A DNA stretch of 64,000 nt from Dermatophagoides farinae (taxonomy: Eukaryota > Arthropoda > Arachnida > Sarcoptiformes > Pyroglyphidae), in assembly GCF_024713945.1 (NCBI RefSeq), contig NC_134679.1, forward strand, positions 1,183,001 to 1,247,000. The letters are read 5' to 3'. Below the pieces are notes generated by a model that did no database searches, had not been told where the DNA came from, and saw only the letters and a program-made list of their open reading frames with translations. How positions within the stretch are numbered: the first letter of the stretch is position 1; each line of letters begins with the position of its first letter. The position numbers and the translations under genes are program-made. Positions 3,536-56,800 of this stretch are shown here, piece by piece.

Positions 3536-4691
3536 TATCCTATGATGTGACTAATTGATTTTTTATGTAAATTATGTTAAATTACGGCATCATTATGATT
3601 GCACACACGGATACGATGGATATATCGGACGAAAATTATTAAAGAATTACCCTGTAATTATATCGAAAATTTTGATGAAATTTTTTTTTTTTTTTTTTTT
3701 TGATTTTACAAAATTCAATTGGTGGCAGCATTGGTGATATGGGCGGAGACAATGTGTATGTTTTATGATTTGTTTTTTGTTTTTTGTTTTGTTTTTATAA
3801 TTATTATTATGGTTTCATGGAAAGATCAAATGAAAAAAAAAATTATTGTTTCTTCTGACGTAATTTGATGATAAAGCTGTAAAGAAAAAAAAAATACTGC
3901 CATTTTCTGGACAATTGCTGTTGCTGTTGCTGTTGTTGTCAGTGGAAATGTTTATGAATATGTCTGTATATGTCACGCCAAAAAACATTAGCTTGATTGA
4001 TTCAATTTAAACTTTGGAGAATATATTTATGTCGAAAAAAAAGTGGTTCGAATATGTCACGTCATTTTGGTTTTTTTGGATGTTGTCTGATGGTGAGGAC
4101 AGACAAGTGATCGATGGAAAACAAAAACCTCAAAGTCAAATCATTGTGTGTGTGTGTGTGTGTTTGTATGTTTGCATGTCAATCAAAATCCAGATTCCAT
4201 TATTATAATTTGGATTGTTCCAAAATAAAAGAAACAATGTTATTATGATAATTGATGATTAGATCATCATCAAGAATTTAAGATCCAATTGATAGAATAT
4301 TCAAATCAGAATCAGATCTGATCAGAATAAAATTTCAATCATCAATCTGCAACAGAAAGGTGCAGGTGTACACGTACGAATTTTTTTTCCAATTTTGAAT
4401 GCCATATATGTATCCAATGATGATGATGATGATGACCAAGGAGGATTCAATATGAATGGAATAAAAAAATTCAGAAATAAGAAATTATTATATAGCCAGC
4501 AAAAAAAAAAAATACCTAGGATCCAATATTCTTCTCTATATGGATGTGTTGGCGCATTGCATGAAGAAACAAACAAACAAACAAACAAACAAAAAAAAAT
4601 TTGAAAATCCTATTCACTTTTAAATAATATAAATGATGATGATAGCAGCATTTGTGAATGATATGATATATATATATGTATTTAACATTAT

Positions 4692-4722
<31 letters not shown>

Positions 4723-6719
4723 TAGTGTTTGCAACACAATCAGGCGTGGTTCAATAAGGTGGGACTTGTGATAAAATGTGTGATAAGCAATATATGGAAA
4801 GAGAAAACGAAAAAGAGAGAGAGAGAGAAAGATATATACATGCCACATCACACATATACACGCATACACTCAAAAAAAAAGTGTAGCGGCAAAGAAAAAG
4901 GTAATGGTGGCTACATTTTTTTTTTTTTTTTTTTGGATACACTTCTATCTAGTATCCAATATTCATTCATTCATTCATAGATATTGAATCGTTCAATGTT
5001 CATTAGCATAGAAAATTATTATGAGCTTTTTTTTTTTTCTTTTTTTTTTGCTGTTGTTGCTAATATTATCACGCACATACACAAAGGCGCGTTGCGCATT
5101 CGTATCTTTTGGATTTTTTTTTTGGTAATTTGTTTTTATTCAGATATATATTATAACCATTATTTTGCATATTCATAATTTGTTTAATCATACTGTGGTA
5201 GTGGATTCAAATTTTTGATTTGAATTTTGTTTTCCCGGGAAGTTTCGAGAAAGAAATTAATTTTAGAACTGGACTATTTGACCATTTTCAATAAGCCACA
5301 CACACACACAAAATTAATTACACTGAATGAATTGTTAATCTTACCGTAGAATCAATCACTGAGTAATAAAATAATGATATTTTTGAGATAAATTAATTGC
5401 CAAAAAAAAAACACACAAAAAACGATCGAAATTAAATCATTCATAAAGGCAAAAACAATAACAACAACAACAACAACAACAAAAAATTGTTCATTTAATC
5501 ATTAAAATCATCAAATATTGAATGGTCACGCGACGCTAGCCATTTTGTTTGTTGGCTAGTGTTAATAGTGTTTTTTTTGTATTGTGATTGGTGATGATGC
5601 GCGCGTGGTATGATCTCATTATATTTGGATCTGTAAGTGTTCCAATTGTTAGAATTGCCTAAAGGGTCTATTTTTTTCCTACTTTGTACACACGATTATG
5701 ATATGAGGATCTTTCTTCTTCTTCTTTATCGATAATATATATTTTTTTTGGGGAAAAAATGAAATGAAGATAAAAAAAAATGTTTCGTGCATTGGAATAA
5801 TCGATATATATATATGAAAAAAAAATCATTCAATGTTCTACCATTAATAGTAGAGAAGCAGAATCCATTTATTCAAACAAACAACAAAAAAAAACATGAT
5901 AATAAAAAATAAAAAAAAAAATATTCTCCAACCAAAATGATGAAGCCATATGTGAGAAATTCTATATCTATATTCTACATATATATATTATTATATTATT
6001 CTGTATAATGGCGATATTATGTAAACAAAAAAAAAAAAAAATAAAATTCTGCAGTGTACTGCGATAGCCCAAAATGATAAAAAAAAACACATTTAAAATG
6101 TTGTTGTTGGTGGCCACAGAAAAAAAAATACATTTTATCTCTATTTACAACAAGAATAATAATAATAATAATAAAGTGAAAAGCAAATATAACTGATAAA
6201 GTTCAATGTACAAACATTGAATAATGAAAATTTTTTTTTCGTTTTTTTTTCGTTTCGTTTCGTTTTGTTTTGTATCGATTCAAATTTTATATTCTATTAG
6301 ATACTGAAGATTTTTTTTTGGAACCAGAAAACACAACCAACGTGTTAACATGTTATAATTGAAGAAATCTTTTTTTTCTGGTGAAGAGAAAAATTTTCTG
6401 AGAAAAACAAAACAAAAAAAAAATTTATTTGTAGCATCTGTGTGCATCACACACCATGATCATTATTAGCTGCTGTTGTTCAATAACGATGACATGATGT
6501 AAGAATGAAAGAATAACAATATACCATTATCACCATCATCATTATATAATGATGATAATGATAATTGGTTCTATTATACTAAAGGTCATCGTTTGTTGTT
6601 GTCACAAAACAACAACAACAACAACAATTTGTATCAAATAATGATCATCATCATCATCATCATTATTATTATTCTCATTTGAATCAATTTTGGATTTTCG
6701 AAACAAAAACACAGCAAAC

Positions 6720-6725
<6 letters not shown>
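1..6725. other. Gene-poor, microsatellite-rich DNA
   Basis: I see no coding gene that I can support. The stretch is dominated by A and T homopolymers, (CAA)n at about 3433-3463, (TC)n followed by (AC)n at about 3501-3535, and scattered (TG)n. Open frames here translate to runs of K, F, N, H or CV, which are decoded microsatellites. Two non-repetitive islands stand out. One is a 9-bp perfect inverted repeat at 1549-1573. The other, at 5520-5640, holds a short hairpin and an ATG-plus-donor arrangement; both are treated as findings. Whether this is intergenic or part of a long intron cannot be decided from the sequence. Confidence 0.6.
1186..1212. repeat. (TC)n microsatellite
   Basis: An uninterrupted TC dinucleotide run follows directly on a poly(T) tract. 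Confidence 0.9.

Positions 6726-6815
<90 letters not shown>
6726..6815. repeat. (AG)n microsatellite, about 45 units
   Basis: A perfect AG dinucleotide array of about 90 bp, the longest pure dinucleotide run in the window. In other frames it reads as alternating RE or SL, which gives spurious ORFs on both strands. A GC-richer segment follows it, including a GGCC-GAAA-GGCC mini-hairpin near 6853. Confidence 0.97.
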
Positions 6816-6818
<3 letters not shown>

Positions 6819-8144
6819 TCATTTCATTTCATTCAAATTATTATCGATGTCACGGCCGAAAGGCCAGGTCAAATCGCCGATAGAACCGTTTTGTTTTCAT
6901 GGACAACAACAACAACAACAACCATCAGCAACAAATTATCCACATTGACCATTGGTGGGTAATGAAGAAGAATTTTTTTTCTTTTGGATTCATTTTCAGG
7001 TCACGTTCCGGTTAATGTTCATGTGTTCATGTGTCTATGATTGTCCAGTGATTAGGATAAAAAAATTGTACAAAACAGCATTTTCCATCCGTCCATCCAT
7101 CCATCCATTGGTGTTAGCTAAACAATTTAGCTAACAATAACGAAAATACATACAAAACACTAAACTGAGAATATTCGATATAAATATCCATTTCACAAAC
7201 AAACACACATGGACACTTATCGCCTGTCCATTTCACACACACACAGACAAGTATAACGCGTTTTCAAAAAAAAAACGAAAAAAAAAATTCCAATGAAACG
7301 TGTGTCTAGGATCATCATCATCATCATTATTATTATTAAAAGTAAAAAAAAAATTCAACAACAAAATCCATGATTAACCAAGGGCAAAGGTGATATATTC
7401 AATTTTATGAATGACACTGGTTATTTGTTAATAATTTTCGATTAATCAAATTGTCAAATTGAATTATTGATTTCAAGTATTTCAAATGGTTTTTTTTATT
7501 AGTAAATGTTAATGCTTCAAACAAAAGATGATTATTATTTTTTAATAATTCAGATTTTCTTTTTTTATTATGCGTGGGTGTATGTACTGGAACCGATTAT
7601 AATGATAGAAACTTTGACATGTATACAAGTGTGTGGAACTTATTGTTTGCCTGTGTGTTGTGTAATCAACTTGTAATTATCATCATAACACACCGAAGAT
7701 GAATATATATGTCACATGTCGATTTTTTTTTCTTTTCTTTGTTGTTGTTGTTGTTGTTCTTGATCAGAAATGTATTTAATTCTCTTCTCATTTTGGGCTA
7801 TATCACCATTCTTTTCTTTTCTTTTTTTTTAGCCGATATTTATTATGATTATTCGGTGACACATTGAAAATTGCTTGTTCACACACACACACACACACAC
7901 ACTCGCTTGCTTGCTTGCTTAATCCGGCCAATGGTCAAGAGTGATTGTTGTTGTTGTTGTCAGTAGTAGTTTTGACCATTGAAAAGTTGTTCATACATAC
8001 ATACATATGCGGTTGATGTATAATAATAATAATAATAATATTTTTTGACAATGAAACACAAGCAAAAAAAAAAATATCAAATCCTGGAAAAAAAACATAC
8101 AAAAAAAGAACGAAAATTGTTACATTTATCCAGTGCGTTAGAAT

Positions 8145-22082: not shown

Positions 22083-25000
22083 ATGGCGAAAAAGAATCGA
22101 CAAAATATGAATTCATTCGACAAAGTTAATAAAAATAAAAATAAAAATGATGGCAATCAATCTTCTATTGCAGAGCCCTCTACATCATCATCATCGACAA
22201 CACGAAAACGGGTAACCATTGATAATGGATCGATTCCAATTACCAACACCATTGATGAACATCAAGTTCAGAATTCATCATCAACACAACCGCCACCACC
22301 ATCGACAAACATTGAAAACAATCATAACAACGTAAAAAATAAAAATAAAATCACCGATCATTTATTGACCATTGAAGAAGTGATTAAAAAATATAATACA
22401 TCAATCATTGATGGCCTAAATGAACGAGAAGCAATCGAAAGGCTAGAAAGATATGGATCAAATACATTTACACCACCAAAAAGTAAACCATGGTATCTAT
22501 TGTTTATCAAAGAATTGACCAGCGGGTTTGCACTATTATTATGGTTTGCCGGTATCGCTAGTTTTGTTTCTTTTTTTACTGAACATAAAAACGAAGATGT
22601 AAGTTATTTTTTTTTTAATTTTTCTTTCTTAGATAAAAATTTCTCACGTTTGTTGTTGTTTGTATTTCTTATCAATCAATATTCGTGTGCGTAAACACAC
22701 ACACACACACACAGGCATATTTGGGTGGTGCCTTAATATCCACCGTCGTTATGACCGGTTTATTTTCCTATTATCAACAAATGAGCAGTTCAAAAGTGTT
22801 TAAATCATTCAAACAAATGACACCACAGGTTTGTTGGTCAAAATAAAAAAAAAAATATATCAAAAAAAAAACTGAATATTTTTTTATCCCCCTTGTCCAA
22901 CAGAATGCATTCGTTTTACGTAATGGTCGAAAACAAGAAATACTTGTCGAACAATTAGTTATTGGTGATATTGTCTATTGTCAAGCTGGTGATCGTATAC
23001 CTGCCGATATACGTGTTATACATTCGGATAGTATGAAAATTGACAATTCATCCATTACTGGTGAATCAAAACCATTACTACGTACAATAGATCGTTGTGA
23101 TGATCAACAATCATATCTAGAAGCATCAAATTTAGCTTTTTTTTCCACCAATTGTACGGATGGCAGTGGTATTGGCGTTATAATTGCCACCGGTGATAAT
23201 ACGGTTATTGGTGATCTAGCATCAACTGTATCGAATATTGGTGAACAAACAACACCCATTGCGAGGGAGATTTCATTTTTTGTCAATATTATCACCATTA
23301 TTTCATTAATAAGTAGTGCATTATTTTTTGGTTTAACCATTTATTTTGGTGAATCAATATTTGATGCATTCATATTGATGATTGGTATTATGGTTGGCAA
23401 TGTACCTGAAGGATTATTACCTGCATTGACCGTTGTATTGACAGTGGCTGCTAAAAGAATGGCAGCAAAAAAATGTATGGTTAAACATTTGGAAGCCGTG
23501 GAAACACTTGGATCTACATCGGTCATATGTACAGATAAAACCGGTACATTAACACAGAATCGTATGACAGTTGAACATCTTTGGTTTGGTGGTGATAGCT
23601 ACACAAATCGTAATCGAATGTTATGTTCAGATGAAGAAGAAAATGAACAAATTAAACAAAGTTTAGATTGGTTAGCATTGAAACGTTGTGCAATGCTTTG
23701 TTCAAGAGCTGAATTTCTTGATGATAATCCGATTATAAAAGAACGAAAAACACTTGGTGATGCATCAGAAACGGCCATCATGAAATTTTTAGAAGAATCC
23801 ATTGGTCCAGTAGAACAATATCGACAGCTTTATCCTAAATTGGCCGAAAAACCATTCAATTCAACGAACAAATATCAATATTCTATACATAGACAAATTA
23901 ATCCAAATACGGGATTATTTTCCAATCATTTTCTAGTGATGAAAGGTGCACCGGAAAGAATTCTTGAACGATGTAAATGGAGAGTTAATGAGAATGGTAA
24001 AACCGTACCGATTGATGATAGTTTCATAATAATGTTTGAAGATGCATATCGAGAATATGGTTCTCATGGTGAACGTGTACTTGCATTTTGTGATCATGAA
24101 TATACTGCTGAAGAATTTGGTGATAATTATCAATTCGATGGTGTAAATCTAGATGAAATTATTACATTAGAGAATTTACGATTTCTTGGCCTCGTTTCAA
24201 TGATTGATCCACCAAGACCGGATGTTCCAAACGCTGTTAGCATGTGTCGACAAGCCGGTATTCGTGTCGTAATGATTACCGGTGATCATCCAATTACAGC
24301 ACAAGCAATTGCAAAAATGTGTGGAATCATATCACAAGTACATCGTGGTACGAGTATTGCATCATTACGAAGTACAACATCAATAATAGATAATCAACGA
24401 TCAATTGTTGTACCGGGTAATGAATTAGAGGAAATGTCGGATGAAAATCTACGACAAATTCTTGATTATGGTGAAATTGTGTTTGCACGTACATCACCAA
24501 AACAAAAATTCCGTGTTGTTGAACAATTTCAAGCAATGGGTGAAATAGTAGCCGTAACCGGTGATGGTGTTAATGATTCATTGGCATTGAAAAAAGCCGA
24601 TATTGGCATTGCAATGGGTATTACTGGATCAGAAGTTTCAAAACAAGCTGCCGATATGATATTATTGGATGATAATTTTGCTACCATCGTCATCGGTATT
24701 GAAGAAGGACGGCGTATATTTGATAATCTTAAGAAAACAATTTCCTACATATTGGCCGGAAATGTGACGACAATTTATCCATTCGTATTGTATGCTACAC
24801 TCGGTATACCATTAGCCATGTCCACATCGGTAGCATTGTTGATTGCATTAGGCACTGATATAGCACCGGCCATATCATTAGCATATGAAAAATCTGAAGA
24901 TGATATCATGAATATTGGTCCCAGAGATGCTAAAAAAGATCGTATGGTCGATGGACGATTACTACAACGTGCATATCTAACTATTGGAATTATGATTAGT

Positions 25001-25724
25001 TCGGCAGCATTTTTCTGCTATTTCGTAACAATGTGGCGTCATGGTTTTGATCCATTAATGTTGATCCAATCACAACGTCGTTGGAATAATCCAAATGATA
25101 CATTTCCACGATTAGATATGGAACATTATCATCTACATGAAAAACCTTCTATTAATACGGTATGAATTTTGTTTTTTCGAATTTTCAAACATCAAAAAAA
25201 AAATCAAAAAAATTTTTTTCCCCTTTCATTTCCCCATTCACACAGACATACGAAGAACGAATGTCAATTCAAATCGAAGCTCAAAGTGCCTATTTTGCCG
25301 GAATAATCATCATGCAATGGATGGATGTGATTGTTTGTAAAACACGACGTGTATCAATTTTTCGACACGGAATGAGGTGATTTAGTTTGTTTGATCAAAA
25401 TCACATAAAAATTTTTGTTTCTTTTTGATTTCATTTTTTGCTATTTATTTTTTTTTCTCCTCTCCCATCATTTCCTCATCCCGTCAACAACAATACAGTA
25501 ATTGGGTTCTTAACTTTAGTATCGTAATTGAAACAATACTAGCAGCAGCATTTATCTATGTGCCTGCATTGAATCAAGTGATGCAAATAAATACAGTTGA
25601 TTGGCATAGTTTTATATGGGCATTCACATTTATGGTTCTAATGTTTTTATATGAAGAATTTCGTAAATGGATTATTCGTCAATTTCCATCTTCATCATTT
25701 TTTAGTAAAGAATTATTGGCCTAA
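22083..25724 (+). CDS. P2C-type P-type ATPase, divergent Na+/K+-ATPase alpha-subunit paralogue
   Basis: Five exons: 22083-22598, 22715-22828, 22904-25159, 25246-25376 and 25499-25724. They join in frame to 1080 residues plus TAA. The start is supported by an in-frame TAA at 22059-22061. The family moves cations across membranes by ATP-driven autophosphorylation. Residues 1-90 are a polar, Asn/Ser-rich tail, longer than in classical alpha subunits. The rest follows the family order: M1-M2 about 145-195, TGES 262-265, M4 with PEGLL (E379), phosphorylated Asp D421 in DKTGT, KGAPER at about 557, TGDGVND at about 762-768, M5-M10 from about 820. Aligned without gaps from M5 to M6, N830 and D862 match pig N776 and D808. 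However, T833 replaces E779, A858 replaces D804 and G829 replaces S775. L770 replaces the Pro of GDGVNDSP. Site III residues Y825, T861, D989 and the M9 Glu are kept. The SYGQ beta-contact is not recognisable, and the protein ends KELLA instead of KETYY. Family assignment is firm; ion specificity is unknown and it should not be assumed to be the housekeeping Na,K pump. Confidence 0.95.
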
Positions 25725-47498: not shown

Positions 47499-50400
47499 AT
47501 GAATCAATTAACTGTAATGTTGAATGGTAATAATGCAGCATCAGCAGCGGCAGCAGCAGTAGCAAATAATCAACAACAACAACAACATCATGCTGCATCA
47601 TTGGCAAACACTACGATCAATCAACCACAATATTTTACATTTCAAACTACCAATAATCAACAACAACATTCTGGTTCTATTAATCAACAAACAGCTACCG
47701 GTTTGGCTACCAATGCTGCTGCTGCTGCTGCTGCTGCTTCTTCAATTGAACAACAACAATTGTTCACAATACAACCGGCAACAACATTTTCACCAAATAT
47801 TATGTTAACCACCAATGGACAACAAATAGCATCGACAACAACACAAGGATTTTTACCGGCAACAAATATGAATAATCATCCAGCAACAATTCAATATATA
47901 ATCACACCACAACAACAGCAACAACAACAACAACAGCAATCTAATCAGCAAATATCACAGCCATTTGGTGGTAAGTGAAAAAAAAGCCACATTTATTCAT
48001 TGAGAATCTTGAGAGATTTTCATTTTTTTTTTGTTGGTTTTTTTTTGGTTTACTACCAAATTATTGATGATGACGATGATTCGTTTTTTTTTGTTCGTCT
48101 GTTTCCATTAACCACTTAGGTTTAATGTCCAATTTGATTACGCCATCTACGCCTGCTCATCAAATAAATATGATTCCAATCAATCATCAAACATTACAGG
48201 GAACAACGACGGCGACAATATTGCAACCACAATTAATAGCAACTAATGGATGTTCCACGACATCAGCATTACAGCCAACAACATTTATTCAACAACAACA
48301 ACAACCAACACAAACGGGTACGTTTCATATACAAACGACTGCAAACGCTGCTTCTTCTGCGACCAACAATGTTAATACTACTGCAACGCAATTGTTCCAT
48401 CAACAACAACCGCAACAACAATTTCAAGTGATAACAACACCATCTACATTAGCAACGCAACCAACATTGACAAATGGTGCAATAACATTTCAAACAAATC
48501 AATTGATTGGTTGTATACCATCAACAACGAATCAGCTAGTTCAACCGCAACAGCAACAATTTTTTCTGAATCCAACAACAATAACGCCCACACTTCAACA
48601 ACAGCAACAACAACAACAGCAGCAGCAACAATTGTATCAATTAGTTTTACCTGTAAATGGTCATCAAATATTACAATCAACAATGTTACAGCCAACAAAT
48701 ATGATAACAACAACATCGGGACATCAATTAATAACAACCGGAACTCAACATCAACAACAACCGACTGCAATAACGGTGCCTATACAACAACAACAACAGC
48801 AACATGGAACATTATTAACAACCACCGGTGGCAATCTCCAATTTCCAATTGGTCAACAGCAACAAAATACGGCAACATTCTTAACACAACAGCAACAAAC
48901 TTCAACATTACCAATAAATTCTGCCATTATTCATCAACAATCACCACAACAACAACAGCAACAATCATCAAATGTATTCACAACAAATCAATTAACAATA
49001 CAGCCATGTTTATCTACCGGTACTGGAAATACGAATAATAATTACCTCAATACTCAACAAAATTCAAATACGATAACATTGATAGCTACAGCATCACCAA
49101 CGACAAATATTACGAATCTTTCATCATCGCAACAACAAACGAATAACACGACATCATCTATAAATAGTGTTGTTGGTCATCATCATAATCATCAACCATC
49201 ATCTTCGATGGTCAATATTACGAATAACAACAACAACAACAACAATACGCAATTACATCATTTACCCGTACAGAATGCTGTTAATAATATTCATACAAGC
49301 AACAACAACAATAACATCAATTCACCATCGACATCAACTACGGCAATGATGGTTTTTACATCTTCTGCTGCCGCACCATCATCAGCCACAAATATTACAT
49401 GTGATACCGGCATTGTACAACAACAACAACAATCGCCAATGTTGATGTTTGACAATCTCATCAAGCCAACATCGATCAAGTCAATCAACAAAAAAAGTTA
49501 TTTAGAATGTCCAACATCAACAACAGCAACGAATGGATGCCAATCATCATCAACGAATTCAACAATAACTACAGGTCAAACTGGATTCGAATTATCAAAG
49601 GCATGTAGTACTAGAGAAAATTTCAATCTCATTATGAATTCGACGGCGGCGGCGGCAACCACAACAACAACAACAACCACGACGACGGCAACGATGACGA
49701 CGATAATTACGCCCAAATTATCGTCTACAAATGCCGAACATAACAACATGAAAAGAGGTTCAATAGTCAATGATGATCATGATCAAAATACGCCATCTTC
49801 CGAAGAAAATAGTCAAAATAGTTTTACGGTGAATGACCAGAAAATTATTATCGAAAAAGATGATAATGAAATTGGTGATATTGTTAATAATGGTGGTGAT
49901 GAAAATTTGAATGGATTAACATCATCGTCTACCACAACAACTACATCATTATCATTATCACCACCTACACCATCGATAGAAACATCGTTAGCAACATCAC
50001 CGAGTCAAACATCATCAACCATTATTCAAAGACCATCATCGGCTGCTTCATCATCATGTGGTTCATTGAAAATAGCCGATAATGATGATGATGATGATGA
50101 TGATGATGTGGATGATGGTGACGATGATGAAGATGATGGGGAGGATGAAGAAGAATATGATGCCGGTAATGATGAAAATTGTTATAATAAAACACGGAAC
50201 ATGAATGAGAAAAAAGATGATGTGAAAATAAACCGAAAACGAGCTAGATCAATGGATAGTTTAATAAATGATGATGACGATGACGATGATGATGATAATG
50301 ATGATAATAGTACAGATGAAACGGAAGAAATGGATCTGGATAGTGCTACGACTGAAATCGATAGTGATTGTTGTAGTCATAAAACTAATAATAATAATAA

Positions 50401-52600
50401 CCGGCAAGAATCGGATACTACTACAATAATACTGCCAACAACGACAACATTACCGATAACAATATCTACGATGAAGACGACTAATACTATGTCCACCAAC
50501 ACTACTGCCACCATCAACGGAATACGATCAGAATCATTGATAATAAACAATAATAATAATAATCCCATTAAAAATATGAATGATGATAAAGATGGATATC
50601 AAAGTGGTGGTTCATTGCCATGTCATTTTACCGATACCGAAGATGAAGAAGATGATGATGATGATGATGTCATGAATACGAATGTTGATGGTAAATTGAT
50701 CGATATGAATGATGGTGATGTTGTTGGTGGTGGTGAAATTAAACTGATACGACGTAATGGTCTTACACAAGCTGCATATAATCTGATTAATAATCGTATA
50801 TTAATGAGTAGTAATAATGATGATGATGATAATTTTACTATAGCATCGATTGAATCATCAATAACGAATGATGAAATATCCAACATAAACATCCAGAATA
50901 TTGGTAATACAAAACAATTATCATCAAACAATCATGATGATAATGTTAATAATCGGATATCCATGCAAACACAAACATCATTAACGACAACGACAACAAC
51001 ACCATCATCACCATGTTCTATTCATTCAAATAATAGTAGCCTGATTGATACGACTACAGAATCTTTTTTATCGACAACACCATCATCATCGACGAATCCA
51101 CCGTTGATATCATCAAAAGGTAAAATTATAAATGTTTTTTTGAAAAATTAAATTTAAATTTAAATTCAACTTTAAAAAAAACAGAAAGAGCCATTTGGAC
51201 CCCAGAAGAACAACAATTGGCCAATGAAATACAGGAATTTGCTAAAACATTTAAACTTTGTCGTCTATCATTGGGCCTAACACAATCACAAGTTGGACAA
51301 GAATTGAGTGCATTAGGTCCATGTTATAGTCAAAGTGCAATATGCAGGTATTGCGAAAATGAATTTAATTTTTTTTTTGCTCACGTGTAATTCAAATTCA
51401 ATTTTTTTTTTAAATTCAATTCTCAGATTTGAAAAATTGGACATCACATTAAAAAGTGCTAAAAAAATAAAACCAGTATTGGAAAATTGGATGCGTGAAG
51501 CGGAAGAAAAATATCGTCATAATAAAATTGTTGGAAATGTAAAACCAGAAGCATTGGTTAATGTATTGAATAATAATAAAGATAATAAAGATCCAAATGC
51601 ATCGTCAACAACAACATCGACATTATCATCATCATCGTTTAAGATTAGTTCAGCATTAGAATTGGTGAATAATGGTGGTAATTATGGGAAAAATTTTCAA
51701 CTTCACCAACAATATAATAATATCAACAACAGCAACAACAACAACAATCAAAATGTTGTTAATCATCATGATCAAAGAGTTGGTGGTGGTATGATGGTTA
51801 ATAATAACAGTGAACCATCACAATCACCATCACCATCATCATCATCGGCAATGATATCATCAAATGTAAATATTTATAAAGCATTTATGGAAACAAATAA
51901 AAAACGTAAACGTCGTACATCGTTTACGCCAACCGCCATTGATGCATTGAATAAATTTTTTGAACAAAATAATCATCCAAATGGTGAAGAAATGACTAGA
52001 ATATCGGAAATATTAAATTATGATCGTGATGTTGTGCGAGTATGGTTCTGTAATAAACGACAGTCAACAAAAGCACGATGTAAAAATGATATGACTTGGA
52101 ATTCTAATCAATTACAGCAGCAGCCACAACAGTCGATTGAATCGATACCAGCAGCATCACTGAATAATGATCAAAAATCATCAACAACATTGAACAACAA
52201 TGCCTTTGCAACAACAGTGAATAATAAATCAACTAAAACATTATCGAATGATATACAACCATCATCATCATCCTTATCATTATCATCATTGAAAATGGCA
52301 ACTTCGATATCATCATTATCACCCATAAAGCCATCACCCTCATCACTGCCACCCACATCATCGATTGGTCATCAACATCATCATCATCATCATCAATTTT
52401 TTCGTCCAATACATCCATCACATGGACAAGCATTACGAAGTCCTTTACCAGCGGCCATAAAAATGAACACAATGAATGGTGGTGGTCGTGATACCATAAT
52501 TCCATCGGTAGCAAATATTGCACCATTTGGTTTAGGACGATCAACAACAACAACGACAAATTCGACAACGATGAAGACCAATAATGAAAATTCAAAATGA
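47499..52600 (+). CDS. pdm3: Class VI POU-homeodomain transcription factor (POU6F/pdm3 type)
   Basis: Four exons: 47499-47970, 48120-51119, 51185-51347 and 51427-52600. They join in frame to 1602 residues plus TGA. An in-frame TGA at 47475-47477 supports the start, though an upstream 5' UTR exon cannot be excluded. The product should be a nuclear, sequence-specific DNA-binding regulator, typically neural in animals. Residues 1-1157 are low complexity: poly-Q (about 317-329), N, T, S and A tracts, acidic D/E blocks (about 812-840 and later), and a basic RKRAR at 863-867 that could be a nuclear localisation signal. The POU-specific domain is about 1165-1241 (RLSLGLTQSQVG, YSQSAICRFEKLDIT). The homeodomain is about 1370-1430, with RKRRTSF at its N-terminal arm and WFCNKRQ at 1418-1424 in recognition helix 3. 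SLGLTQ, the Y-S-Q-S-A-I-C-R-F-E stretch and the SFTP/NYDR homeodomain features point to class VI and not to Oct or Brn classes. The linker of about 130 residues between the two domains is very long for the family. The C-terminal tail is Ser/His-rich. The symbol is by family resemblance. Confidence 0.95.
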
Positions 52601-53815: not shown

Positions 53816-56800
53816 TCATTGAATTGAACTGCTACTACTACTTTGTTCGGGCAAAATATACGAAATATCATCCCATGGATGACGATATAATCCTTGTTTC
53901 AATCGTTTTTGATCCAAATAATGTCCTAAAATTTTGATTGAAAAAGAAAATGAAATCAATAAAAAAAATGAACAAATCAATCAAACAAAATACCGATAAA
54001 TCCAATGGTTCGTCCAAGAACAAATAGTCCATTCAATACACCAATATCAAGATATTCTTGTGCTTCTTCACGTGTAAAGCATCCACTGTTACGGAGAAGA
54101 TCAACAACCGATACAGCAACAATACCATCAACATTTAGAATTAGGTTAGGTTTCTGTTATATCAAATGTAAATTTTAAAGTAAACTAATTTAATTATCAT
54201 AGTTAAAATTCAAGACATACCTTTGATGTAGTCACTTTTTCCACTTCAAGTGCATAATCTAACACCGGTGTAGATGGAAATGTTTGTTTAACATAATCTT
54301 TCATTAATTTTACTCTCATATCAGGATTATTAATTGATTTGACTCGATGACCAATGCCCATAATGAGTTCACCTTTTTTACGCATTTGATTTACAAATTC
54401 CATTGGAATCGTACCGGAATCATATGCTTGACTAAATTGTCGTGCAGCACCATCCAATGCACCACCAAATCTTTCACCAATAGTTAATAAACCAGAAACC
54501 AGTGATGAAACCAAATCTTTACCAGCACGAGCACAAACAATTGTATTATGTGCACCAGAAACGGCTGGTCCATGATCAGCTGTTACCATAAGGACCATTT
54601 CAAAGAATTTCGTTGCATAAGTAGGCAAACGACGTTGAAACCATAACAATGATAATGTACCGCCAATACCTAATTCTTCTTTGATTACACGTGTAATCGG
54701 TATACCAGCATATGTTAATTCATTACCACGTTCATCACAAATGGTTGTCATAAATGAAGCCGGTTTACGAATGATACCTAATTCACGTGCCCAATCATAA
54801 TCCATTGGTACTGTTGGCGGTGCAACTTCTTCCTTAGGAATGATAATCTGTGCTTCAACCAGCTGTTGATAAACCTGATTAATAACATTACCAAGTTCAT
54901 CGAATGTATTCGGTACATGTGCACCATGTTCACGTAATGCTTTATTCTTAGCCAACGCTGTTTCACGATCCGAATTAGCACAGGCACCGGCATGTCCAAA
55001 TTGTACTTCGGAATTAAACATACTAGCACAGGTTCCAATACACCATGCAATTAATGGTTTTGAAATTCTACGATCTTTCATTGCATCACAAACATCATAT
55101 TCTTCGACACCACCAACTTCACCAAGTAATACCATCATTTTGACTTCTGGATCAGCTTCATAACGTAATAGATGATCCAAAAATGTTGTACCAGGATAAC
55201 GATCACCACCAATGGCAACACCTTCATAAACACCATTCGTTGATCGTGAAATAATGTTATTCAATTCATTTGACATTCCACCCGATCTTGAAACATAGGC
55301 AACTGAACCGGGTCTATGGAGTTTTGAGCTCAATAAATTATCCATCATACCACCGGTGTTTCCAATCTTAAAACAACCTGGTTTAATACCGCCAACAGTG
55401 GCCGGTCCAATCACCGTAACACCTTTTGATCGAGCCAGTTTAATCATTTTACGTGTAAGATTTTCGGGTATTCCTTCAGCAATAATAGCTATGGTACGAA
55501 TTTGTGGATATTCCAATGTTTCCAATGTTGAATCATATGCTGAACGTAATGATGCAAAACTAATCAATACATCCGCCTGTGGATGTTTATTCATGGCATC
55601 GGACATATTTTTATAGACTGGAATAAGAATTTCTTTATGGCCCCAATAGAATTTCTGTCTATGATCACCGGAAAATGGATAAATCATTGCTACTACTGAC
55701 CATTCTTTACGTGAACAGGCAAAATCAAAATCAAGCATCGATTGTACGGCACGGCTTTGCATTCCCCAAACAATTGCACGTGTTCGAGATGTAAATAATG
55801 GACGAGTAAATTTTGCCGCTTGTGATGTTATTGATGGTGAGAAAGCAGGTGAAAAATTACTATTATTAATTGGTGGTGATGTCATACCACCATTGAAACC
55901 GGGTGAAAAAGCATCGGCACCCATATGGCTTGGTAGCAGAAAATTTGCTGTTGTCAATTTAGTTTCAGGCAGTTTTGGAATTTCTTTTCGTTTCAATGCC
56001 ATTGCTACAATGGCTGTCATATGTGTTTCTGGACCGAAAACATGGACTGGGACACCCAATGTGTTACCGGTTTCACGCATCACACGTAAACCTTCTTGAT
56101 AATTGGGGCCAGCACGACGTACAAAGATCGATACATTATGTTCGATTAATTTTGTTTGAAATTCTCTCAATGCTTTCACAATTCCTTTGAATGTGGCAGC
56201 AACATTTGTAAAATTTGCAATACCACCACCAATAAGCAATATTTTGCCTTCTGGATGTCGTTCTTTGGTCATCAATGATAGAATTGTCTTTGCATATTCA
56301 TATGTTTGTTGTTCGGATGGTGCGCCCGAATATTCACCATAATTGGCCAATTCTGATGCACCACCAATTTCACAAATAGTATCGGCATAAATGACGGAAG
56401 CACCACCACCGGCAACCATCGTCCAAATACGACCTTTTTTATTCAATATAGTCAATTTTAAACTGGCACCGGATTTAGAATCAAGATCAGCAATATAAGC
56501 TTCTTCAGGAAATGCATCACGTCCAAATGGTGGTGGAAAACTAATTTCACCCCATTTTTGTTTACAAAGATATTCAGCCGTTGCATCAACTTTGGCCGCT
56601 AAATCAAGTATATAAATGGAATCCTTAGTGATCACTGGAATATTGAGAAAAAAAATTTCAAATTAAAATCAACATCCAAAAACACAAAATAAATAAACAG
56701 ACAAACCTAATGGATTAATTTCCAAATAAGTAAAATATAATTGAACATATACACGATATAGATCAACAATAAATTTTGTAACCAATTCTCGTTTTTCCAA

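Follow-up and report, generated by a model that had tools for sequence, protein, structure and literature searches.

The cation sites of the Na,K-ATPase, the pump whose alpha chains are the best solved relatives of the gene described here, are listed in Table 1 of PMC5026471, and we pooled the ligands over the crystal and simulation columns of that table. In the E2 state, K+ site I is formed by T772 (O), S775, N776 and D804, and K+ site II by V322 (O), A323 (O), V325 (O), E779 and D804, in the numbering of pig alpha-1 that is used throughout. The Na+ side chains given are T772, N776, E779, D804, D808, E327, Q923 and D926, and in this table T774 contributes to Na+ site III through its backbone only.

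Mutants of Ser777 in rat alpha-1 are described in passages of PMC10812997, where this residue is a ligand common to Na+ sites I and III; as the numbering is shifted by two, it should correspond to pig S775. Ser777Gly alone lowers the apparent K+ affinity 11-fold at a turnover like that of the wild type, and phosphorylation also shows a reduced apparent affinity for Na+ (K0.5 from 0.50 to 3.03 mM). The large replacements (Q, V, L and Y) do not respond to 50 mM K+ but are phosphorylated by ATP in a Na+-dependent manner; they do not support cell growth. In the same passages, the bending of M5 in E2 is attributed to a proline three residues past Ser777, Asp806 (pig D804), intact in the Ser777 mutants, is suggested as the ligand of the one Na+ that remains, and P2 pumps with one ion site are said to exist. 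At the D804 position itself, PMC13267776 reports in the part cited here that worms homozygous for D801N in the orthologue eat-6 are severely affected, where alpha-3 D801 would be pig D804 by a three-residue chain offset.

Altered P2C pockets are also found in natural pumps. The gastric H,K-ATPase alpha (PDB 2xzb) has Lys at 775 and Glu at 804, so that position 804 is still a carboxylate, and it retains E779. Brine-shrimp alpha2KK (PDB 8k1l), a natural arthropod paralogue, adds Lys in M4 and M5, and the passage of PMC10812997 on the brine-shrimp pump with these residues gives a stoichiometry of 2 Na+ for each K+. The original prediction had pointed to altered-site P2C paralogues in invertebrates, for example those of brine shrimp with Lys substitutions.

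Divergent invertebrate P2C paralogues without the SYGQ motif of beta assembly are already published, and the gene described here adds another variant. The cited part of PMC9609216 places six nematode alphas that lack SYGQ (Ce2C3-5 of C. elegans and Tc1-3 of Toxocara; group II) outside the main invertebrate group. In the section of PMC3793950 used here, barnacle Nak2 falls outside the metazoan Nak1 clade, Nak2s evolve faster, and Drosophila CG3701 and C. elegans catp-4 are drawn as divergent branches. All K+-site residues are described there as conserved in "the B. improvisus protein", one of two, which the passage does not specify further.

A P2C gene and its paralogues in the mite genome

The window, i.e., the whole stretch of 64,000 nucleotides of Dermatophagoides farinae DNA that was analysed, contains a five-exon gene of the P2C (Na,K-ATPase alpha) type at 22083-25724 on the forward strand, referred to below as the target. 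It was modelled twice, by hand and by a spliced-alignment script, and encodes 1080 amino acids in an intact frame with zero internal stops; all four introns are GT-AG. Exon 1 (22083..22598, +; donor GT at 22599) contains the start ATG, a low-complexity N-terminal tail and M1. The tail (22083-22313, residues 1-77) is rich in Asn, Ser, Lys and Thr and cannot be aligned to pig alpha-1. Exon 2 (22715..22828, +), with AG/GT borders, encodes M2 and the start of the A domain, while exon 3 (22904..25159, +) encodes the A domain, M3-M4, the P and N domains, M5-M6, M7 and most of L7/8, and matches four P-type ATPase domains in Pfam (PF00122, PF13246, PF00702 and PF00689), all above cut-off. The end of L7/8 and M8 are in exon 4 (25246..25376, +), which retains Q986 and D989 (pig Q923 and D926, Na+ site III). 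Exon 5 (25499..25721, +; TAA at 25722-25724) encodes M9-M10 and the C-terminus SKELLA and retains E1017 (pig E954).

Among solved structures, the best relative of the target is the Na,K-ATPase alpha, with pig alpha-1 (3wgu) at 949.7 bits and an E-value of 1.5e-284 in phmmer. The Na,K-ATPase alpha chains are followed by the H,K-ATPases, and Ca2+ pumps score at most 370 bits. Identity to pig alpha-1 is 48% over the aligned part, and identity to the paralogues in the same genome is 44-48%. The best reading, judged by sequence, is that it represents a full-length, functional-looking but strongly diverged P2C paralogue.

A Der p 2/Der f 2-like ML protein (E 1.6e-30 to a Der p 2 chain) is in keeping with an astigmatid mite as the source. 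The assembly (62.4 Mb, 22 contigs) was searched in six frames and with the spliced-alignment script, and the best candidates were scored. At least five further P2C genes are present, at 3109-3112 kb and 2893-2897 kb (locus L017) of contig C7, 7397-7401 kb of C2, 1991-1995 kb of C4 and 8500-8504 kb of C1. All five paralogues have Glu at 779 and Asp at both 804 and 808. Four of them, the canonical ones, are 72-77% identical to pig alpha-1, and L017 is 54% identical. The target is thus not the sole alpha gene, and its residues are not those of the related canonical pumps; at least five other genes carry E779 and D804, so the canonical alpha that the original prediction had considered exists in the same genome. 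Two beta-subunit loci were found, at 3822 kb of C6 and 1732 kb of C1. A separate locus, L009 (C17:187000-194000, on a 320-kb contig), contains an intronless P2 ATPase frame of 1046 codons that is SERCA-like by eye. An associated organism is a possible source; P2C genes elsewhere in the assembly have introns.

Three splice positions, 123/0, 900/0 and 943/2 in pig numbering, are each common to the target and four of the five paralogues; the first, at pig residue 123 in phase 0, is the intron that precedes exon 2. Position 161/0 is private to the target, and the 977/2 intron of all five paralogues is absent from it. The shared positions favour an intron-bearing member of the family over a retrocopy.

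A second divergent P2C gene in the genome is L017 (C7:2890000-2899000, exons 3751-7028), which has T772V, T774A and P778S, with SYGQ replaced by IYNQ and a C-terminus ETCQ. Like the target, it is altered at T772 and P778, and the two have the same residue in 31 of 101 jointly changed columns, T774A and A925M included. However, L017 keeps S775, E779 and D804, and it is only 44% identical to the target.

In two trees, in which pig alpha-1 and the H,K-ATPase are the sole non-mite animal rows and the published divergent invertebrate sequences are not included, the target is not part of the clade that unites pig, H,K and canonical mite pumps (support of this clade 100 SH-aLRT in the first tree and 98/99 in the second). 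In the second tree it is set off, together with the animal P2Cs, from seven prokaryotic rows (100/100), and the fork between the target and L017 is open. A recent origin by duplication from a canonical mite pump, with the target joined to the four canonical mite genes, was rejected (AU p 0.004), as was a single clade of all six mite genes (AU p 0.006), both subject to caution over long branches. A sister relationship to L017 was mildly rejected (AU p 0.033), despite the residues that the two share. The terminal branch of the target is about 1.0 change per site, compared with 0.05-0.20 in the four canonical mite copies, and long-branch attraction is possible. The placement agrees with the trees that put arthropod Nak2-type sequences outside Nak1, and with the SYGQ-less nematode alphas: like group II as presented in the cited part of PMC9609216, the target is without SYGQ and does not belong to the main Na,K clade of animals. 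One scan of viral contigs gave no match.

Other genes were observed in the window. A POU-homeodomain open frame lies at 51317-52597 on the forward strand (Pfam Homeodomain E 2.3e-16, Pou E 8.3e-8). Just upstream, a 1023-codon open frame at 48080-51148 overlaps a strong GC skew (48001-50000); it matches nothing in Pfam at E 0.001 and may be the N-terminal part of the POU-homeodomain gene. An ATP-citrate lyase-like gene, a single open stretch of 819 codons, is at 54206-56662 on the reverse strand.

The cation pocket and its ligands

The phmmer alignment to 3wgu is free of gaps through M5-M6, as the original prediction had claimed. The constant offset of 54 that it gave for 716, 776, 804 and 808 also holds, but P716, one of these anchors, is itself a changed position: residue 770 (24581..24583, +), at the Pro of the GDGVNDSPALKKAD motif, is Leu in the target, while the 87 other sequences compared have Pro in 86 cases and Met in one.

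In M4, the ligand loop G375-N-V-P-E379 (23396..23410, +; pig A323-E327) has Gly for A323 and keeps E327. The M5 pocket, I826-L-A828-G829-N830-V-T832-T833-I-Y835 (24749..24778, +), covers pig T772, T774, S775, N776, P778, E779 and T781. The M6 pocket, A858-L-G-T861-D862 (24845..24859, +), covers pig D804, T807 and D808, with Ala for D804 and the other two retained. Relative to pig, the changes are therefore A323G, T772I, T774A, S775G, P778T, E779T, T781Y and D804A, whereas N776, T807, D808, E327, Q923, D926, E954 and Y771 are kept.

The codons, read directly, are ATA for I826 (24749-24751), GGA for G829 (24758-24760), AAT for N830 (24761-24763) and ACA for T833 (24770-24772) in M5, GCA for A858 (24845-24847) and GAT for D862 (24857-24859) in M6, and GAA for E379 (23408-23410) in M4. 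They confirm the equivalences already proposed for S775 (Gly829), E779 (Thr833) and D804 (Ala858) and, together with the alignment, the retention of N776, D808 and E327 (E379). The changes T772 to Ile, T774 to Ala, P778 to Thr, A323 to Gly and P716 to Leu had been omitted from that account, as had the losses of SYGQ and of the C-terminal Tyr-Tyr. By its residues, the site appears as a rebuilt pocket (T772, T774, S775, P778, E779, D804, A323), which is more than a two-residue swap. An assembly or gene-model error, for which no evidence was found in the one assembly read, is very improbable, as the ACA and GCA codons are at least two bases from any Glu or Asp codon, respectively, neighbouring pocket positions differ as well, the protein is divergent over its whole length and the M5-M6 alignment has no gap.

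Of the four K+ side-chain ligands pooled from the table in PMC5026471 (S775, N776, E779 and D804), the target retains N776 alone. Pig and each of the five paralogues have 4/4, and the gastric H,K-ATPase has 2/4. By the same table, the target keeps 5/8 of the Na+ side chains, the five paralogues 7-8/8 and the gastric H,K-ATPase 7/8. At Na+ site III, Q923, D926 and Y771 are retained in the target, T774 has become Ala and S775 is lost. The losses thus appear to fall more on K+ ligands than on Na+ ligands. However, this contrast depends on the ligand list chosen: if S775 is also counted as a Na+ ligand, as the passage in PMC10812997 would have it, the Na+ tally becomes 5/9 and the Na+ sites are damaged too. 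Further, the H,K-ATPase counter-transports K+ with only half of the K+ side chains, so that counting ligands is a weak predictor.

An excess of changes in M5-M6 by number was not found in either of two column sets. In the first, 12/27 columns are changed in M5 and 5/19 in M6, compared with 200/583 overall, and in the stricter set the counts are 3/17, 3/16 and 101/415. The case therefore rests on which residues have changed, not on how many.

The prokaryotic comparison used the best 80 of at least 591 confirmed stretches, of which 79 are readable at both 779 and 804. Position 779 is Glu in 68 of these, Gln in five, Gly in four and Ala in two, and position 804 is Asn in 56 and Asp in 23, so Thr at 779 and Ala at 804 are both absent from these 79 of the best 80. 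This sample was picked by similarity to an alignment that contains the target, and it addresses prokaryotes only and not the frequency of the residues in other animals. In the mostly non-subscription literature, we found no description of the pair Thr 779 and Ala 804, a search that alignments present only in figures would escape.

Unlike the target, pig alpha-1 and the four canonical paralogues have E779, D804, S775, P778, T772, T774 and A323 intact, as well as SYGQ and the C-terminal Tyr-Tyr; they share with it the P2C architecture, the catalytic columns and E327, N776, D808, Q923, D926 and E954. The gastric H,K-ATPase resembles the target in its altered P2C pocket, but the target has neither E779 nor a carboxylate at 804. 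Likewise, alpha2KK is an arthropod paralogue with an altered pocket, but its Lys residues in M4 and M5 have no counterpart in the target, which instead drops acidic residues. No Lys or Arg is built into the M4-M6 pocket of the target sequence as a substitute for K+, and no other new charged residue is seen there.

Catalytic core, beta face and C-terminus

The core was compared with 87 other sequences, i.e., the best 80 of at least 591 prokaryotic relatives, pig, the H,K-ATPase (from M4 on) and the five paralogues. Columns were used if at least 60 sequences have a letter there. The target matches all 52 columns that are invariant among the others, and it deviates at one of 75 columns of at least 97% conservation (P716L) and at six of 122 of at least 90%. 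The claim that the ATPase core is intact, with the phosphorylated Asp (D421), is thereby supported. Neutral decay over a branch of about 1.0 change per site would not be expected to spare 52/52 sites, and it is very likely that ATP binding and phosphorylation of D421 are still under selection.

The SYGQ beta-assembly motif of L7/8 is absent. In one alignment K-P-S-I stands at pig 894-897, and by neither alignment, the second of which is gapped there, does the L7/8 of the target contain a SYGQ-like word. Over M7, L7/8 and M10, the target differs at 28 of 46 columns that are invariant in pig and the four canonical mite sequences, compared with 14/45 for L017; leaving out each of the canonical five in turn as a control gives 0-11 of 46-57. 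An altered beta face is the best reading of these differences. The C-terminus is ETYY in four of the five paralogues and ETCQ in the fifth, and the SKELLA of the target is without Tyr-Tyr.

With region borders that are approximate, the target differs at 88/196 canonical-invariant columns in the membrane helices and at 58/253 in the P and N domains (Fisher p 9.9e-7), while L017 shows no contrast (50/196 vs 74/254, p 0.46). However, a canonical paralogue, C7a, is also more changed in the membrane (21/217) than in the core (7/262), so this pattern is not unique to the target.

Possible function and rival explanations

We suggest, with a probability of roughly 0.4, that the target is a catalytically live P2C paralogue in which the K+ sites have been dismantled and the beta face altered, acting as a K+-insensitive ATPase or in a regulatory cycle. 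Cytoplasmic Na+ (or H+) would still trigger phosphorylation of D421 by ATP, via E379, N830, D862, Q986 and D989. Extracellular K+ would be neither bound nor occluded any more, and dephosphorylation would consequently be independent of K+. The result could be a slow, K+-insensitive ATPase cycle in which fewer cations are exported per ATP, or in which coupling is loose. Probably the usual beta subunit would be dispensed with, or the contact to it altered. The role could then be a K+-independent extrusion of Na+ or H+ in a specialised cell, or the conformational cycle could be used in signalling or as a scaffold; a residual transport role is slightly favoured. A pump of altered stoichiometry or selectivity, or a protein with a non-transport role, had been put forward in the original prediction. 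Both are live alternatives, but "altered stoichiometry" is better stated as loss of K+ coordination, given that 1/4 of the K+ ligands and 5/8 of the Na+ ligands are kept in the lists of PMC5026471.

The rat mutants described in PMC10812997 offer a partial model for such a cycle. The target has Gly at the equivalent of Ser777 and Thr832 at the proline of the M5 bend (P778). However, the equivalent of Asp806 is Ala, so the analogy with the Ser777 mutants, as far as the passages describe them, is incomplete, and this is a weak point. In a narrower form the suggestion is doubtful: that the target is a K+-independent and beta-independent Na+ (or H+) ATPase, which would have come from the Na,K-pump lineage by removal of K+ ligands with no tethered Lys or Arg.

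The main rival is a regulator that needs no transport. It would keep the ATP-driven cycle or the fold alone and act by protein contacts, for which CATP-1 of C. elegans is a debated precedent, and we regard it as possible. As a single D to N change at the D804 equivalent is severe in homozygous worms, a complete loss of transport in the target is plausible, and residues of the D804 type are critical in working pumps according to the same part of PMC13267776. The K+ pocket is mostly gone, and with S775 a residue is lost that the passage of PMC10812997 also lists for Na+. For CATP-1, the passage in PMC11631496 cites Ruaud and Bessereau 2007 for pump-independent functions and gives D409E as the weakest DMPP suppressor tested, and SYGQ-less nematode alphas are on record in the part of PMC9609216 cited above. 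However, the same passage of PMC11631496 has a pump-impairing catp-1 allele as the strongest suppressor of nekl defects. Moreover, the target retains Q923 and D926 as well as all 52 invariant columns and the phosphorylated Asp, which pure scaffolds need not do.

A pump with another substrate or counter-ion, in which the pocket has been rebuilt for H+ or for a divalent or organic cation and has a counter-transport of its own, is unlikely. Several changes around one pocket (T772I, T774A, S775G, P778T, E779T, T781Y, A323G and D804A) would fit such a rebuilding, and P2 pumps with one site exist according to the passage in PMC10812997, but the M4-M6 pocket has gained no charged residue, and the residue set matches none of the best 80 of at least 591 prokaryotic relatives (79 readable).

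It is improbable that the pocket substitutions are drift in a dispensable duplicate, under relaxed selection or in early decay. The long branch, the missing SYGQ motif and C-terminal Tyr-Tyr, P716L and the lack of a numerical concentration of changes in M5-M6 are in line with decay. Set against this are the open frame of 1080 amino acids with its four GT-AG introns, the retained splice positions 123/0, 900/0 and 943/2 and, despite the length of the branch, not one loss among the 52 invariant columns.

If the target is indeed a live ATPase with dismantled K+ sites, it would differ from the two natural pumps with altered pockets considered here, the H,K-ATPase and alpha2KK. These add a tethered cation, while the target instead removes acidic K+ ligands with the ATPase core conserved. 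It would then be a natural experiment on whether K+ must bind for a P2C pump to turn over, and it would put to the test the disputed view that certain alpha paralogues of animals act without pumping ions.
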